Assembly: GCA_027451445.1 (NCBI GenBank)
Contig: DAIDJG010000223.1
Coordinates: 1 to 35,229 of the forward strand
Source: Singulisphaera sp.
GTDB lineage: Bacteria; Planctomycetota; Planctomycetia; Isosphaerales; Isosphaeraceae
DNA length: 35,229 bases
Reading direction: 5' to 3'
Shown piece after piece: positions 1,330-7,359 of the stretch; position 1 is the first letter of the stretch; every line of letters starts with the position of its first letter. The notes below the pieces were generated by a model, which saw nothing but the letters and a program-made list of their open reading frames with translations, was not told the DNA's origin and did no database searches. The position numbers were made by a program, and so were the translations under genes.

Positions 1330-1986
1330 TCACAGGATCGACTTGCGGTGGGTTTCCGTACGCGGATACACCTTCGCGTCCTTCAGTTTGCCGATCAACG
1401 CGGCCGCCCCATACTCCTGGGCGTACTCCATCTCACTGCGCGTAATGCCAATACAGCGAAGGACATTGAAGTGCTTGCCCTCGATCTCCATCTCGGAAAA
1501 CTTCTCGAACGCTACCCCTTGTATCGAGTCGCTGGCTTTGACCCATGCGCCCACGTCGACGGTGTGGAGGTGCCCGAACGGCTCGTCGAACGACATGCGG
1601 CCGATGGCTGAGACGATGGTTCTCACCCATGATTCATCATCGCAGGTGATCAAGAACTCGTAACGCCCGGACTCGTTGGGCTTCTGATCGGGATGGACCG
1701 CCAGTTCGCACGAGACATACGTCACGAATGGCGTGCCCCGTCCTCTCCCGATCGTGGCAAAGCTGAGCGGTCCGCCGGCATCGAATCCCACGATGGCCGC
1801 GAGCGTCCCACGGTCGATGGGGCCGACCCGCTCTTCCAAGGGCGCGAACAACGTGCGGTAGAACCTTTCGTGGTTCGGACGTGCGGGTTTCATCGGGTTG
1901 TTGGCTTTCTCCTCCGCCGGCTTGCTCTCGCATCCTTGCGCGGTGAGCGATGCGGTGATGAGCCCTGCCATCAGCAATCGAGTCAC
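1330..1986 (-). CDS. SUFU (suppressor-of-fused) domain protein, probable lipoprotein
   Basis: A 218-residue protein whose C-terminal half resembles the bacterial suppressor-of-fused domain, ending in the family-like segment VYPRTETHRKSIL. Bacterial SUFU proteins are known mostly as immunity proteins or accessory factors of polymorphic toxin systems; no enzyme activity is expected. I chose the GTG at 1986 because a GAGGGGA ribosome-binding site lies just upstream; an ATG at 2031 in the same frame lacks one. The new N-terminus is short and hydrophobic and ends in TAQGC near residue 18, a loose lipobox, suggesting an exported lipoprotein. That is odd for SUFU immunity proteins, which are usually cytoplasmic. 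It is divergent from the SUKH gene at 2231. Family call is moderate, lipoprotein call is inference. Confidence 0.68.
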   Translation of the reverse strand: MTRLLMAGLITASLTAQGCESKPAEEKANNPMKPARPNHERFYRTLFAPLEERVGPIDRGTLAAIVGFDAGGPLSFATIGRGRGTPFVTYVSCELAVHPDQKPNESGRYEFLITCDDESWVRTIVSAIGRMSFDEPFGHLHTVDVGAWVKASDSIQGVAFEKFSEMEIEGKHFNVLRCIGITRSEMEYAQEYGAAALIGKLKDAKVYPRTETHRKSIL

Positions 1987-2230
1987 GTCTTCCCCTCGGT
2001 TTTGAGATTCGTCGTTTGCTCCATGAATCACAAACTAGCGAATTCCAAGAGGCTTGGCTAATCTCGCGTTATGATCCCTGTCGACTTGCGCGCCCGGTGA
2101 AGGCACGGTCCGCAGGAGATGCTGTTCCCCGGCCTCTGGGCGGGATTCCACGAAAACCAGCCGCCACAGCAATGCATCGTCTGGCGTCTCTCCGAGCTGT
2201 TGAAGAATTGCAACGTCGAGGACTGCCCCC

Positions 2231-2677
2231 ATGATGCCCGATACGATCAAGCGACTTGACGCCAAGTTTGCCGGCTGTCCAATCATACGCGCCGCCGATG
2301 TCCCGACTGCGACCGAGATCATACAAGCGGAACTCGAGATCGGGGTACGATTCCCTGATGACTACCGGGAGTTCCTTCTCCGCTACGGAGGAGCGACGGT
2401 GGGGCCATATCCCGTTTTCGGACTGCGTCCAGTCGAGGTCATGGGAGTGAATCACTGGTCAGTCGTCGATGTCACTCGGCATTATCGATCCGATGGTGTT
2501 CCTGGTACGGATCAATGGGTGGTGATTTCAGAGGACCATGCGGGAAACCCGATCGGAATCGACCAGGGCGGCACGGTCTGGATTCACGATCACGATTTTG
2601 GCGGGCGCGCTCTGTTAACGACGAGCTTCGAAGACTATATCCGAACGCGTTGCCTGAAATTGTCGAGCGGTGACTGA
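2231..2677 (+). CDS. SMI1/KNR4 (SUKH) family protein
   Basis: A 148-residue protein with the SUKH hallmarks: ELEIGVRFPDDYREFLLRYGG in the N-terminal third (residues about 34-54), a central VFGL, the stretch WVVISEDHAGNPIGID, and a C-terminal TSFEDYI. SUKH proteins in bacteria serve chiefly as cytoplasmic immunity proteins that bind and neutralise nuclease and other toxins of contact-dependent or polymorphic toxin systems. No toxin gene is visible beside it, so it may be an orphan immunity gene. It is divergent from the SUFU-domain gene, a second immunity-type fold. GAGGA about 9 bases upstream supports the start; the second ATG at 2234 is equally possible. Confidence 0.87.
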   Translation: MMPDTIKRLDAKFAGCPIIRAADVPTATEIIQAELEIGVRFPDDYREFLLRYGGATVGPYPVFGLRPVEVMGVNHWSVVDVTRHYRSDGVPGTDQWVVISEDHAGNPIGIDQGGTVWIHDHDFGGRALLTTSFEDYIRTRCLKLSSGD

Positions 2678-4285: not shown

Positions 4286-4305
4286 AAAACTCCGAAACTT
4301 CGAAA
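4286..4305 (+). repeat. Candidate attL (left copy of direct repeat)
   Basis: AAAACTCCGAAACT, two differing bases, then GAAA. The same 20-bp pattern is at 7335-7354 just upstream of the integrase gene. Tyrosine integrases typically leave such short direct repeats at the element ends. No tRNA gene is seen as target. Confidence 0.45.
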
Positions 4306-4341
4306 TCGTTGACAGTTCCCGACTTGCGTATTTCGGAGTTT
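4287..4341. promoter_or_regulatory. 11-bp inverted repeat at the left element end
   Basis: AAACTCCGAAA (4287-4297) and its exact reverse complement TTTCGGAGTTT (4331-4341) are 33 bases apart. The same 11-mer recurs at 7336-7346. Next to the second arm, TTTCTCCAAAACTC (4339-4352) recurs at 7328-7341. These look like integrase binding sites shared by the two ends. Confidence 0.5.
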
Positions 4342-4370
4342 CTCCAAAACTCTTGACTGCTTGCACTAGA

Positions 4371-4413
4371 TGACTGGTATTAAAGAGTTTACGGCAAATC
4401 TCATTACCAGTCA
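4371..4413. repeat. 9-bp inverted repeat
   Basis: TGACTGGTA (4371-4379) and TACCAGTCA (4405-4413) are exact reverse complements with a 25-base spacer. It sits between the left candidate att site and the iteron-like repeats, a place where recombinase or replication proteins would bind. Confidence 0.4.
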
Positions 4414-4426
4414 AGGGCTTGGAAGA

Positions 4427-4519
4427 AGGTAATGTCGCCATTCGGGGGTTCATAATAGAGATTCTAGGCAATCTGGGAAAGCGGATTGCTGGCATTCTAG
4501 GTAATGCTACCGAGGTAAT
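4427..4519 (+). repeat. Iteron-like AGGyAAT repeats
   Basis: The heptamer AGGyAAT occurs at 4427, 4466, 4499 and 4513. Two copies lie in a longer 12-base repeat ATTCTAGGyAAT (4461-4472 and 4494-4505) spaced 33 bases, close to three helical turns. Such spacing suggests bound protein on one face of the DNA, for example Rep iterons or integrase arm sites. No gene is supported between 4306 and 4703. Confidence 0.45.
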
Positions 4520-4650
4520 AGCGAACAATCGATCACTAGGATTCGGGGGGATAACCCACTTAATTGTGCATTCGATTGGCATGCGTCTAGCGGGATGGCG
4601 GTTGAAAGGTTTCTTGCCACCCCTACTGTGTGCAAATTGGGTTCAAAAAT

Positions 4651-4904
4651 GCGTGCGGTGGCGACACCGCTCACGCGGATCCGAAGGTGGATTTGTTGAA
4701 CCCCTATGGTGGCTTGCTGGCAAGCCGAGTGTCAGCCGATGGGAGAACCGTCCTTGAACCGTGCGTGAATCGCTCACGCGAGCGTATACCGCTTGCTAGC
4801 GGTGTTCTCGCGGATGGGGGAACGGGATGCGTTGTGTCGTTGCCATCGTGAGTTGTTTCGGCTGACGCCGAAACAAGATTGGCACGCTGGGGGGCGTGCC
4901 AATC
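4651..4904. repeat. Array of perfect hairpins at the Rep 3' end (origin-like)
   Basis: Successive hairpins: 4655-4670 (6-bp stem), 4711-4726 (7 bp), 4763-4779 (6 bp), 4788-4803 (6 bp), 4853-4876 (10-bp perfect stem, loop TGAC) and, directly abutting, 4877-4904 (11-bp perfect stem, 6-base loop). Three of the hairpins are followed by related tails (TCACGCGGAT 4671-4680, TCAGCCGAT 4732-4740, TCTCGCGGAT 4806-4815), so the array seems to contain diverged repeat units. It overlaps the last 66 codons of the Rep-like frame. A rolling-circle double- or single-strand origin is the simplest idea; a structured RNA is an alternative. Confidence 0.55.
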
Positions 4905-5687
4905 AGTTGCCTTTTTCAAAGATTCTTTATTCTTAGATTCGTATGCATCCATGCACTCTTGATGGCATGCTTGTGGTGTGGGAAACCATTCAGATATTAG
5001 TGATTTCCATATTTGCTTTTCCGTCGTGTTGAGCCAGAAACCTGCTGTCGAGAAGGTGCTGTCGATGCCGGATTCTTTGCGTCGTTTTAAGAGAAAAGAT
5101 TGCTTACTTTTTGTCGTAATGTTGTCTTTATTATTGGACGACACAAACTTACATTGATAGAACAGCGTCTTGATGATTTCGTCACCAACCATCGGAACGC
5201 AAGTCGAAGACTTACCCCCTGCGTATTTCCAAGAATCATAGATTGCTTGCCTTAACACACTTCGTGGAGCATCTGAATAACATGCGAAATCATAGTGACA
5301 ATTCAACTTGTCGGTAGGGTGTGCAATCGCGTGAATCCCGACAAAGTATCCATGCCGTTTCCTCATGCTGTTTATCAGTCGAAGGAATCTTCGCTTGACT
5401 TTCTTATGTTCTTCTGGACTCGCATCGATCGCCAGTTTGAGGCAACCACGATAAATCGTGAAATCGTTTGATAGCGATTGAAGGTGCCTTGCGACACAGT
5501 TTGCATGTTTGTATGCCCATTTATTGCGGCATTCTCTACTGCATCGTGGATTCCTGCATCGTGGCAGGTGTTCCAAGCCAAGATACTCTTGTGTCTTTTT
5601 GAGATTACTGACATTTCGACATTTGGCACTAGGGCGTTTTTGGATAAAGTCATGTTGACTTTTAACGGAATTTTCGCTAATATACAT
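4704..5687 (-). CDS. Rep-like protein of the integrated element (possible HUH initiator)
   Basis: A 327-residue protein, AT-rich in codon use compared with the chromosome. The N-terminal part has clustered cysteines (C44, C49, C53, C64), a possible zinc-binding knuckle. It is followed by a basic helix and NCHYDFACYSD (129-139), which sits like the H-x-H motif of rolling-circle initiators but has only the first His. YDSWKYAGG (150-158) and TLFYQCKF (174-181) follow, reminiscent of Rep motif regions. I infer a DNA nicking or initiation role from this and from the element context; the family is not firmly recognised. Residues 262-327 are encoded by the hairpin array and look low in complexity, with a repeated LPSAxTxLAS-like phrase, so the functional protein may end near 260. 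No clear ribosome-binding site precedes the ATG. Confidence 0.5.
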   Translation of the reverse strand: MYISENSVKSQHDFIQKRPSAKCRNVSNLKKTQEYLGLEHLPRCRNPRCSRECRNKWAYKHANCVARHLQSLSNDFTIYRGCLKLAIDASPEEHKKVKRRFLRLINSMRKRHGYFVGIHAIAHPTDKLNCHYDFACYSDAPRSVLRQAIYDSWKYAGGKSSTCVPMVGDEIIKTLFYQCKFVSSNNKDNITTKSKQSFLLKRRKESGIDSTFSTAGFWLNTTEKQIWKSLISEWFPTPQACHQECMDAYESKNKESLKKATDWHAPQRANLVSASAETTHDGNDTTHPVPPSARTPLASGIRSRERFTHGSRTVLPSADTRLASKPP

Positions 5688-5728
5688 TGGTGATTTCGTG
5701 CTTTGGCGGGCACAACCTTTCTAATAAG

Positions 5729-5757
5729 TGCCGTGATGGCTTCCAACCGTCACGGCA
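5729..5757. promoter_or_regulatory. 11-bp hairpin between the Rep-like and Xis-like genes
   Basis: TGCCGTGATGG pairs with CCGTCACGGCA (one G-U pair) around a 7-base loop. On the plus strand it is followed by TGTTTCATTAT. It lies about 40 bases before the Rep-like start, so it could be a terminator for the Xis-like gene, an attenuator of the Rep-like gene or a plus-strand terminator. Confidence 0.45.
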
Positions 5758-5787
5758 TGTTTCATTATATCGTTATATTAGATTTTG

Positions 5788-6033
5788 TTATCGCCATTTT
5801 TCCGAGACGGGATTCCACTCTCTCCGTCTTCCCGTCATAGTTCCTTTGATTTTACACGCTTTCACTTTTTCTTGAAACTCTTCCCAGTCAGTCTTCAAAA
5901 CACGAATCGCACGCCGAAAACGGCATGCTGGCAAAGTGCCTTGATCGATGGCTCGATAGACGGATTTGACGGAAAAACCAGAGAGTGCGGCAATCTCTTT
6001 TGGCGTGTAGAACTTTGATTGAAGGTATTGCAT
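5788..6033 (-). CDS. Excisionase-like helix-turn-helix protein
   Basis: An 81-residue basic protein. Residues about 7-45 (FYTPKEIAALSGFSVKSVY) form a MerR/excisionase-type winged helix-turn-helix of the HTH_17 kind, in which a tyrosine-rich start and SVKSVYRAI recognition helix are usual. Such proteins bend att DNA to favour excision, or act as repressors. It is encoded about 100 bases downstream of the integrase gene on the same strand, separated by a strong hairpin. This is the usual place for a recombination directionality factor. The C-terminal tail (46-81) is basic and without recognised domain. Confidence 0.75.
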   Translation of the reverse strand: MQYLQSKFYTPKEIAALSGFSVKSVYRAIDQGTLPACRFRRAIRVLKTDWEEFQEKVKACKIKGTMTGRRREWNPVSEKWR

Positions 6034-6078
6034 GTTTTTTGCTTCTAAAAAGTAAAACGATAAGTGAATGTAAACAAC

Positions 6079-6119
6079 GAGACACGGGGCTAGGGCTTGC
6101 CTAGTTTACCCCGTGTCTC
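6079..6119 (-). terminator. Strong terminator-like hairpin after the integrase gene
   Basis: An 11-bp perfect outer stem (GAGACACGGGG, 6079-6089, with 6109-6119) encloses a second 5-bp stem (CTAGG, 6090-6094, with 6100-6104) and a 4-base bulge. It begins 18 bases beyond the integrase stop. On the minus strand it is followed by GTTGTTT, fitting a rho-independent terminator of the integrase gene. Confidence 0.65.
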
Positions 6120-6137
6120 AATTATCTTCTAGTCCTA

Positions 6138-7193
6138 TCAGAACAGCAACGAAGCAACGGCGGCTTTCTTGGCTTCATTCCGCACGCGAGCGTAGACTTG
6201 TGTCGTATTCAAGTCTTTTTGTCCGAGGCATTCACAGATAGTCAGAATGGGCTTCTCTGCGTCCACCAAAGCCGTTGCGAATGTGTGTCGGAGTTGGTGC
6301 GGATGAATCCCGAACTTGCTTTTCAGTTGGTAATAAGCAGTCGCATAGGTGATGTTCGGAAAGATGCGTCCCGTCGCATGGAGCGTCTTTCGGCGTGCGA
6401 GAACGGCTTTTCCAATCGGGGCGACTTCCGCCGTATATCCCGTTTTCGTTTTCGTCGGGATGGCAGTTGACGATGGCGGGACTTGGATGCCACCATCAGC
6501 CGTCAACCACTCCCATTGCATGTTGACGGCGGCATTGGCACGCATCCCCGTTGCAAGCATGACCTTGAACACATCGGCAAAATCAATAGTGAGTTTGCCT
6601 TCCTTGACGGCGGAATCAACCCGTTCCAAGAAGTCTTTCCGTTCTCCATCGGTGAGATACTTGATGTTCTCCGTCGGCGGGAATCGCTTGTTGTAGTCTC
6701 TCAACACGGGCGAAACTGGATTCTTGTCGATGATGCCGCGTTCGAGGGCTTGCTTGAACAGTGCCGACAAATAAATCAAGTCAGACTTGATTGTCTGTCC
6801 CTTCACCTTGCCATCACGACTGTTCGCCCATGCTCTCACGGTGTCCGTCGTGATGGCGGACACCGAACAGTCTTTCCCGATGAATTCGCGGAACCATCGG
6901 ATGATGCGTTCCATTCGCACGGCGGATCCAGCGGCTTTCATCTTCGGGTAGTCCACGCCGAACCAGTCCATGAATTCCATGATGGATTCGGGGTTTGCTG
7001 CTCGCGTCGTTGAACCCGACTCTTTTGATTCAAAAACGCCAGTGTGCTTGCTGGCGAGAACCAGAACATCAGGGGGCTTGTTCGCGTTGGATTCCCCAGG
7101 AAGTGCCTTGCGGAGCGTGACTCTGGTATCCTTGCCGTTTCGTTTCGTTTTGAGTTTCCAATTGCCAGATTGCTTGTCAATGTAAACCGTCAT
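6138..7193 (-). CDS. Tyrosine recombinase (phage-type integrase)
   Basis: A 351-residue site-specific recombinase. The N-terminal third (about 1-65) resembles an arm-binding region, the SAM-like core-binding domain covers about 70-165, and the catalytic domain about 175-345. Catalytic residues are visible: R218 in TGMRANA, H299 and R302 in HPHQLRH, and the nucleophile Y334 in TTQVYAR. The second His position is Gln (LGQKD, Q325), a substitution tolerated in some members. It would catalyse integration and excision through a 3'-phosphotyrosine intermediate. AAGGA about 10 bases upstream supports the ATG. The gene is nearest the right candidate att site, as expected, and is lower in GC than the chromosome. 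Confidence 0.92.
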   Translation of the reverse strand: MTVYIDKQSGNWKLKTKRNGKDTRVTLRKALPGESNANKPPDVLVLASKHTGVFESKESGSTTRAANPESIMEFMDWFGVDYPKMKAAGSAVRMERIIRWFREFIGKDCSVSAITTDTVRAWANSRDGKVKGQTIKSDLIYLSALFKQALERGIIDKNPVSPVLRDYNKRFPPTENIKYLTDGERKDFLERVDSAVKEGKLTIDFADVFKVMLATGMRANAAVNMQWEWLTADGGIQVPPSSTAIPTKTKTGYTAEVAPIGKAVLARRKTLHATGRIFPNITYATAYYQLKSKFGIHPHQLRHTFATALVDAEKPILTICECLGQKDLNTTQVYARVRNEAKKAAVASLLF

Positions 7194-7297
7194 CGTTCTG
7201 TGTCCTTGTCATTCCAGTCTCCGATGCAAAGTCGAGTTGCGAATCAAGAGTGTAAGAAACCCATTGTCTCTCACTTGGAAAGGCATCTTACCATAAA

Positions 7298-7359
7298 GAA
7301 ACCATTATCTCAATGGTATCTCTATGGTTTCTCCAAAACTCCGAAACTCTGAAACCATT
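7298..7359. promoter_or_regulatory. Right element end: inverted GAAACCAT repeats and candidate attR
   Basis: GAAACCAT (7298-7305) and ATGGTTTC (7324-7331) are exact inverted repeats, and GAAACCATT recurs at 7351-7359. The 20-bp direct repeat shared with the left end is at 7335-7354. The cluster lies about 105-165 bases upstream of the integrase start, so it likely combines integrase binding sites, crossover site and integrase promoter region. Confidence 0.5.

Follow-up and report, generated by a model that had tools for sequence, protein, structure and literature searches.

A compact integrated element with a putative HUH-type Rep lies within a dispersed host repeat of the planctomycete Singulisphaera sp.

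What is the block of three low-GC genes carried by a 35,229-nucleotide stretch of DNA from Singulisphaera sp. (GenBank assembly GCA_027451445.1, contig DAIDJG010000223.1), and how did it come to be there? We refer to the whole stretch as the window; it is contig C223 of source genome G000, which comprises 10.9 Mb in 622 contigs. A preliminary description, made from the sequence without database searches, had proposed a small integrating element with an integrase, an Xis-like protein and an unusual Rep-like protein. Our analysis favours a minimal integrative replicon, that is, a circle whose integration would be driven by the integrase and which would be copied by the Rep protein, and we put the probability of this reading at roughly 0.77.

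In order of transcription the block encodes an integrase, an HTH_17 excisionase and a Rep-like protein, all on the minus strand and all with intact reading frames. Open reading frame calls and family matches confirm these three genes as first described, and the reported shift in composition is equally real, the GC content of the element being 48.2% against 58.9% and 65.1% in the 3-kb flanks. Between the attachment-site (att) cores, at 4338-7341, there is no substantial gene beyond the three and no cargo. The element and its parts are as follows.

4338-7326, no strand assigned: integrated element, 2,989 bp per predicted circle, from the distance between the att cores and the GC shift
4338-4352, plus strand: attL core GTTTCTCCAAAACTC, left end of the element, an exact 15-bp direct repeat with 7327-7341
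7327-7341, plus strand: attR core GTTTCTCCAAAACTC, right end of the element, an exact repeat of attL
4286-4352, plus strand: left part of the split host repeat, including the left core arm TTTCGGAGTTT (4331-4341), from alignment with 11 uninterrupted copies
7327-7355, plus strand: right part of the split host repeat, including the right core arm AAACTCCGAAA (7336-7346), from alignment with copies in the same genome
6138-7193, minus strand: tyrosine integrase, 351 amino acids, from family matches and alignment
5788-6033, minus strand: excisionase or HTH_17 DNA-binding protein, 81 amino acids, from Pfam HTH_17 and TIGR01764 matches above their cut-offs
4704-5687, minus strand: Rep-like protein, 327 amino acids, from alignments of 6, 9 and 25 homologues, profile comparison and homologues that match PF23343

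The ends of the element are defined by the host sequence that it interrupts. A dispersed repeat of about 90 bp, with the inverted core TTTCGGAGTTT-N5-AAACTCCGAAA (an 11-bp inverted repeat around 5 bp), is uninterrupted at 11 other sites in the source genome (L084-L094; up to 3 mismatches). A reversed control pattern gave 0 sites in that genome, and the repeat was not found in 44 other genomes of the family, one of them of the same genus, at up to 2 mismatches. We built a consensus of this repeat from ten other copies. Around attL, 40 of its 44 conserved positions are matched to the left of the core and 4 of 12 to the right, and around attR 12 of 12 are matched to the right and 10 of 44 to the left. 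Flanks joined at the 15-mer match the consensus at 63 of 67 conserved positions, whereas other places in the window match at 16 on average and at 34 at most. Since joining the flanks in this way restores the dispersed repeat, the window holds one host repeat that the element interrupts. On joining, the attB core reads TTTCGGAGTTT-CTCCA-AAACTCCGAAA; it is centred on the 5-bp spacer of the inverted repeat, as is usual for core sites of tyrosine recombinases. The predicted attB sequence is TTTCGGAGTTTCTCCAAAACTCCGAAA, the predicted attP junction of the circle is TATGGTTTCTCCAAAACTCTTGAC, and the predicted excision product reads ATGGTTTCTCCAAAACTCTTGAC.

Could the repeats have arisen by chance, so that the three genes would not form a single mobile unit? 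The longest word common to both flanks is 15, compared with a maximum of 13 in 300 shuffles and 14 in a second set of 100, and a lone 15-bp repeat that exceeds shuffles by so little would leave room for this idea. It is refuted by the restored host repeat, by relatives with repeats of 19-49 bp and by their empty sites. The boundaries first suggested, 4286 and 7354, are not borne out, the ends being the exact 15-mers listed above. The 25-nucleotide repeat at 4286-4310 and 7335-7359 exists, with 84% identity, and was rejected as an att site, both copies being parts of the dispersed host repeat. The empty-site query had joined the flanks at this same repeat, and its short stray matches within the genome led to the dispersed repeat.

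Is the same arrangement found elsewhere? Rep homologues are present in 4 of 45 genomes of the family, and a search of the class with a profile of nine sequences detected them in 16 of 248 genomes. Direct repeats enclose both an integrase and a homologous Rep in two other Isosphaeraceae genomes (G031 and Tautonia sociabilis) and in one more distant planctomycete (G522).

G031a element: 19-bp exact repeat, 3,192 bp, inserted at the 3' end of a glutamine synthetase III gene
G031b element: 27-bp exact repeat, 3,343 bp, in the 3' end of rpsI
Tautonia sociabilis element: 24-bp repeat (22/24), 4,667 bp, in the 3' end of rpsI, with the same target sequence as G031b
G522 C8 element: 49-bp repeat (94%), 4,484 bp, in the 3' half of tRNA-Lys, with a divergent integrase

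All of these elements have a GC content below that of their flanks, and the one in Tautonia additionally encodes the excisionase and a further open frame of unknown function. In the genus of G031, two sister species (G029, L099; G027, L100) have empty rpsI sites with uninterrupted sequence through the junction, and three more genomes of that genus match from the rpsI repeat, or from no more than 10 bases outside it, inwards. The integrase, helix-turn-helix (HTH) and Rep genes stand side by side in the window, in Tautonia, in G260 and in C410, a second copy within the source genome; att repeats were not found for the C410 copy or for G260. Directly beyond the Rep gene of C410 (L003, 3638-5055), at the contig start, is an array of 15 tRNA genes. 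A DNA-pattern search of the genome contigs for the Cys cluster of the Rep returned the Tautonia element and otherwise mostly unrelated loci. The preliminary description had named co-occurrence of the genes and a clean junction in genomes lacking the block as its checks. Both were found, the former as integrase and Rep together, with an excisionase in several cases, and the latter at the rpsI sites; the idea of a compact, cargo-free integrating element is thereby supported.

The family matches assign two of the three proteins. The integrase is a member of the tyrosine recombinase (phage integrase) family as judged from its PF00589 score of 54.6 bits against a cut-off of 27.1 (E 1.5e-14) and a PHROG integrase match with E 2.6e-48. 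In the alignment the catalytic residues Arg218, Lys248, His299, Arg302 and Tyr334 are kept. By the same kind of evidence the 81-residue protein is a member of the Xis family, scoring 42.1 bits with Pfam HTH_17 (cut-off 27, E 1e-10) and 35.6 bits with TIGR01764 (cut-off 28.8), and its gene adjoins that of the integrase.

The third protein has the HYDF motif and Cys cluster noted earlier, the Cys cluster CRNPRCSRECRNKWA at residues 44-58 and motif II, HYDF, at residues 131-134; motif III, YQCK, follows at residues 177-180. HYDF is an HUH motif with Asp in place of the second His, so that the His-hydrophobic-His of the superfamily's motif II reads HYD in the window Rep. Motif III is of the HUH type: Y177 and K180 are invariant in the 6- and 9-sequence alignments, and YxxK is present in 23 of 25 Reps, the other two not being aligned there. 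Most homologues have HxH in motif II (HYHF, HSHY, HYHL and similar), and HxD is found in the Reps of the window (HYDF), C410 (HWDF), G031a (HWDV), G031b (HWDF), G538 (HYDY) and G522b (HFDL). The Asp is thus common to five homologues, none of which shares more than about 40% identity with the window Rep, and its retention in such diverged proteins argues against simple decay or recent loss. In a tree of 25 Reps all HxH proteins fall inside a split with 0.99 support, and five HxD proteins (window, C410, G031a, G031b and G538) fall outside it. G522b is placed, with poor support, inside the split that holds the HxH proteins, and a single origin of HxD is therefore not shown. His-U-Gln variants of HUH are on record (PMC10833120); a limited literature search found no report of a His-U-Asp variant.

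To which family, then, does this Rep belong? It has no hit to PF23343 (REP_ORF2-G2P), the gathering cut-off not being reached. The Rep of G630, a Cys-bearing homologue, passes that cut-off (29.3 against 27.8), two other homologues are just under it (26.5 and 26.6), and the replication protein of the microvirus phage phiMH2K, taken as a reference, scores 70.2 and likewise contains a CxxCxxCR cluster. Profile comparison with hhalign connects the HxD and HxH groups with each other and with planctomycete Reps further removed, at 95-99% probability. The predicted fold, with a mean pLDDT (predicted local distance difference test) of 44, shows the expected strand-helix-strand-strand order and places HYDF on its third strand, and the named best viral-library matches of this low-confidence model are mostly microvirus replication initiators and inovirus Gp2. 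Together these data support the view that the window Rep is a divergent protein of the HUH superfamily, homologous to the microvirus and inovirus HUH Reps of PF23343 through its relatives and not a filed member of that family. A profile search had been suggested for this protein at the outset; the window Rep itself was placed in no family, and its homologues with a full HUH and YxxK reach REP_ORF2-G2P, in support of the original Rep proposal.

The grouping of this Rep with microvirus and inovirus initiators raises the possibility that the element is a phage satellite, or a stripped-down single-stranded DNA phage, packaged by a helper. A further point in its favour comes from G019 (L011, 1743-7841), where a homologous Rep adjoins genes for an HK97-type capsid protein and a large serine recombinase; that locus is possibly a small capsid-bearing element or prophage remnant. 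We consider a packaged element very unlikely, given that neither the window element nor the G031 elements hold a capsid, packaging or helper-hijack gene and that no relative is present in 50,697 phage records or in IMG/VR. Rep relatives in G602 and G725 likewise adjoin serine recombinases, which together with G019 indicates that the Rep module has been exchanged between integration systems. In G522, G602 and G725 (L065, L066 and L067) the neighbours of Rep relatives encode proteins that end in a PEP-CTERM-like tail (VPEPSSLALFGIGA), and two serine recombinases are also present in two of these cases.

Where might replication of the minimal replicon begin? One further feature bears on this.

4655-4904, no strand assigned: six short GC-rich hairpins, lying over codons 262-326, the unconserved C-terminal end of rep, and the next 50 bp

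Seven strong calls, with one hairpin in two forms, compare with 0.37 in shuffles, and the single-strand folding energy of the cluster has z = -6.6. This cluster is the best candidate for a nick site or lagging-strand origin.

These data allow us to propose a mechanism. The integrase would recombine a circular 2,989-bp form with one copy of the dispersed host repeat, and the excisionase would aid exit from it. Rep may then nick one strand of the circle with Tyr177, its metal probably bound by His131 and by Asp133 in the place of the second His, and the nicked circle would be copied in rolling-circle mode by host polymerase and helicase, possibly from an origin in the hairpin cluster. New cells might be reached by uptake, or through mobilisation by a helper.

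Several observations weigh against this model. The window Rep is without the second His of the HUH motif, and the integrase has Gln at the catalytic position, the fifth, that is usually His or Trp and is His in four relatives; either substitution might reflect a loss of activity. Searches of Pfam and other family collections gave no direct match for the window Rep, which also has no useful match among solved structures, plasmids, phages or IMG/VR. The structural model of this Rep is poor; comparison with solved structures shows only a common fold arrangement, and the rows shown by a second aligner include no HUH protein. A search of both G031 elements detected no excisionase gene, an empty site of exactly the window locus was not found, no searched genome of the family sharing its flanks, and the circular form is a prediction that was not observed. 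The two substitutions, together with the unconserved, hairpin-filled C-terminal part of Rep, would fit a decaying remnant whose integrase and Rep have lost catalytic residues and which no longer excises or replicates. We regard such a remnant as unlikely: all three reading frames are intact, the motif II Asp is conserved in the diverged homologues described above, and the att cores are identical, as expected of a young or maintained insertion.

Two other features of the window lie outside the element. Positions 240-1041 hold a group II intron reverse transcriptase/maturase with RVT_1 and GIIM domains and, after it, a group II intron RNA match at 966-1041 on the plus strand (Rfam RF00029, 53.2 bits); the 5' part falls beyond the window. 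Within 1330-2677 a SUFU-domain protein (1330-2031, minus strand) is encoded near a SUKH-family protein (2231-2677, plus strand). SUFU and SUKH proteins are often immunity proteins of polymorphic toxins.

How does the element compare with known systems? The integrative and mobilizable elements (IMEs) of streptococci (PMC5357655, PMC5704250) share its compact order of relaxase or Rep, excisionase and integrase genes on one strand, lack autonomous transfer, and have att sites in 3' gene ends, including the rpsI and tRNA-Lys targets of the window element's relatives. This likeness suggests a minimal IME, in which the HUH protein would mainly be a relaxase that nicks an origin of transfer (oriT), a helper conjugative system would move the strand, and replication would be secondary or absent. 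The relaxases of streptococcal IMEs are derived from rolling-circle initiators, 35 of 118 such elements are without a coupling protein (PMC5357655, PMC5704250), and in these IMEs and some integrative and conjugative elements initiator-like proteins also serve as relaxases, some doing both jobs. We nevertheless find this reading somewhat doubtful, although possible, as neither a coupling protein nor a recognisable oriT was found in the element and the nearest named family of its Rep is a phage replication initiator and not a relaxase family. The element differs from streptococcal IMEs in its Rep lineage (HxD, Cys cluster, planctomycetes), its want of a coupling protein and its dispersed-repeat target. 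An IME has an integrase and a relaxase of its own and is mobilised by a helper; of these features the window element has the integrase.

The minimal integrative replicon that we favour also resembles other systems. Actinomycete integrative and conjugative elements (AICEs) such as pSAM2 (PMC3218068) likewise hold int, xis and rep together and alternate between integrated and excised, replicating forms. Unlike AICEs, the window element is only about 3 kb, has no FtsK/SpoIIIE-type tra gene between its att cores, no pra and no other regulators, and its Rep was not detected as RepSA, RepAM or Prim-Pol. Integrated HUH/CRESS (circular Rep-encoding single-stranded DNA) plasmids (PMC6668415) are similar in encoding a Rep, in site-specific chromosomal integration between direct repeats and in having no viral structural genes. 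Unlike theirs, the window Rep is nearer to microvirus initiators, and family searches of the window proteins found no helicase domain, which in CRESS-type Reps is fused to the nuclease; the text on these plasmids does not mention planctomycetes (PMC6668415). The PF23343 initiators of microviruses and inoviruses, such as that of phiMH2K, share an HUH-type motif II, a Y..K motif III and an N-terminal Cys cluster followed by R, and W-A in several members. They differ in that the window Rep has Asp for the second His and is below Pfam detection, and the element has no capsid gene, the major capsid protein gene of a temperate microvirus being absent within its att sites.

Little is known of planctomycete mobile elements, and this one is a defined 3-kb element with exact ends. 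It could be tested as a natural integrating vector for hosts with few genetic tools, its relatives offering landing sites in rpsI, glutamine synthetase and tRNA-Lys, and the Asp-for-His substitution kept across diverged Reps provides a clear biochemical test of HUH active-site flexibility. Tentatively, and at a little less than an even chance, the planctomycete elements may represent a lineage, so far undescribed, of integrative replicons that are near-minimal and replicate autonomously with a Rep whose metal site is His-x-Asp instead of HUH; one of them would be specialised to land in a dispersed palindromic repeat of its host. The "undescribed class" of the preliminary description is too strong a term, as rep-xis-int integrating elements with rolling-circle-type initiators are known from AICEs, streptococcal IMEs and integrated HUH plasmids. 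The element is best read as the rep-xis-int core of an AICE or streptococcal IME without a transfer gene, and thus as a new branch within a type of element already known; new are its planctomycete lineage, a Rep lineage whose HUH motif has Asp, and the use of a dispersed repeat as insertion site.

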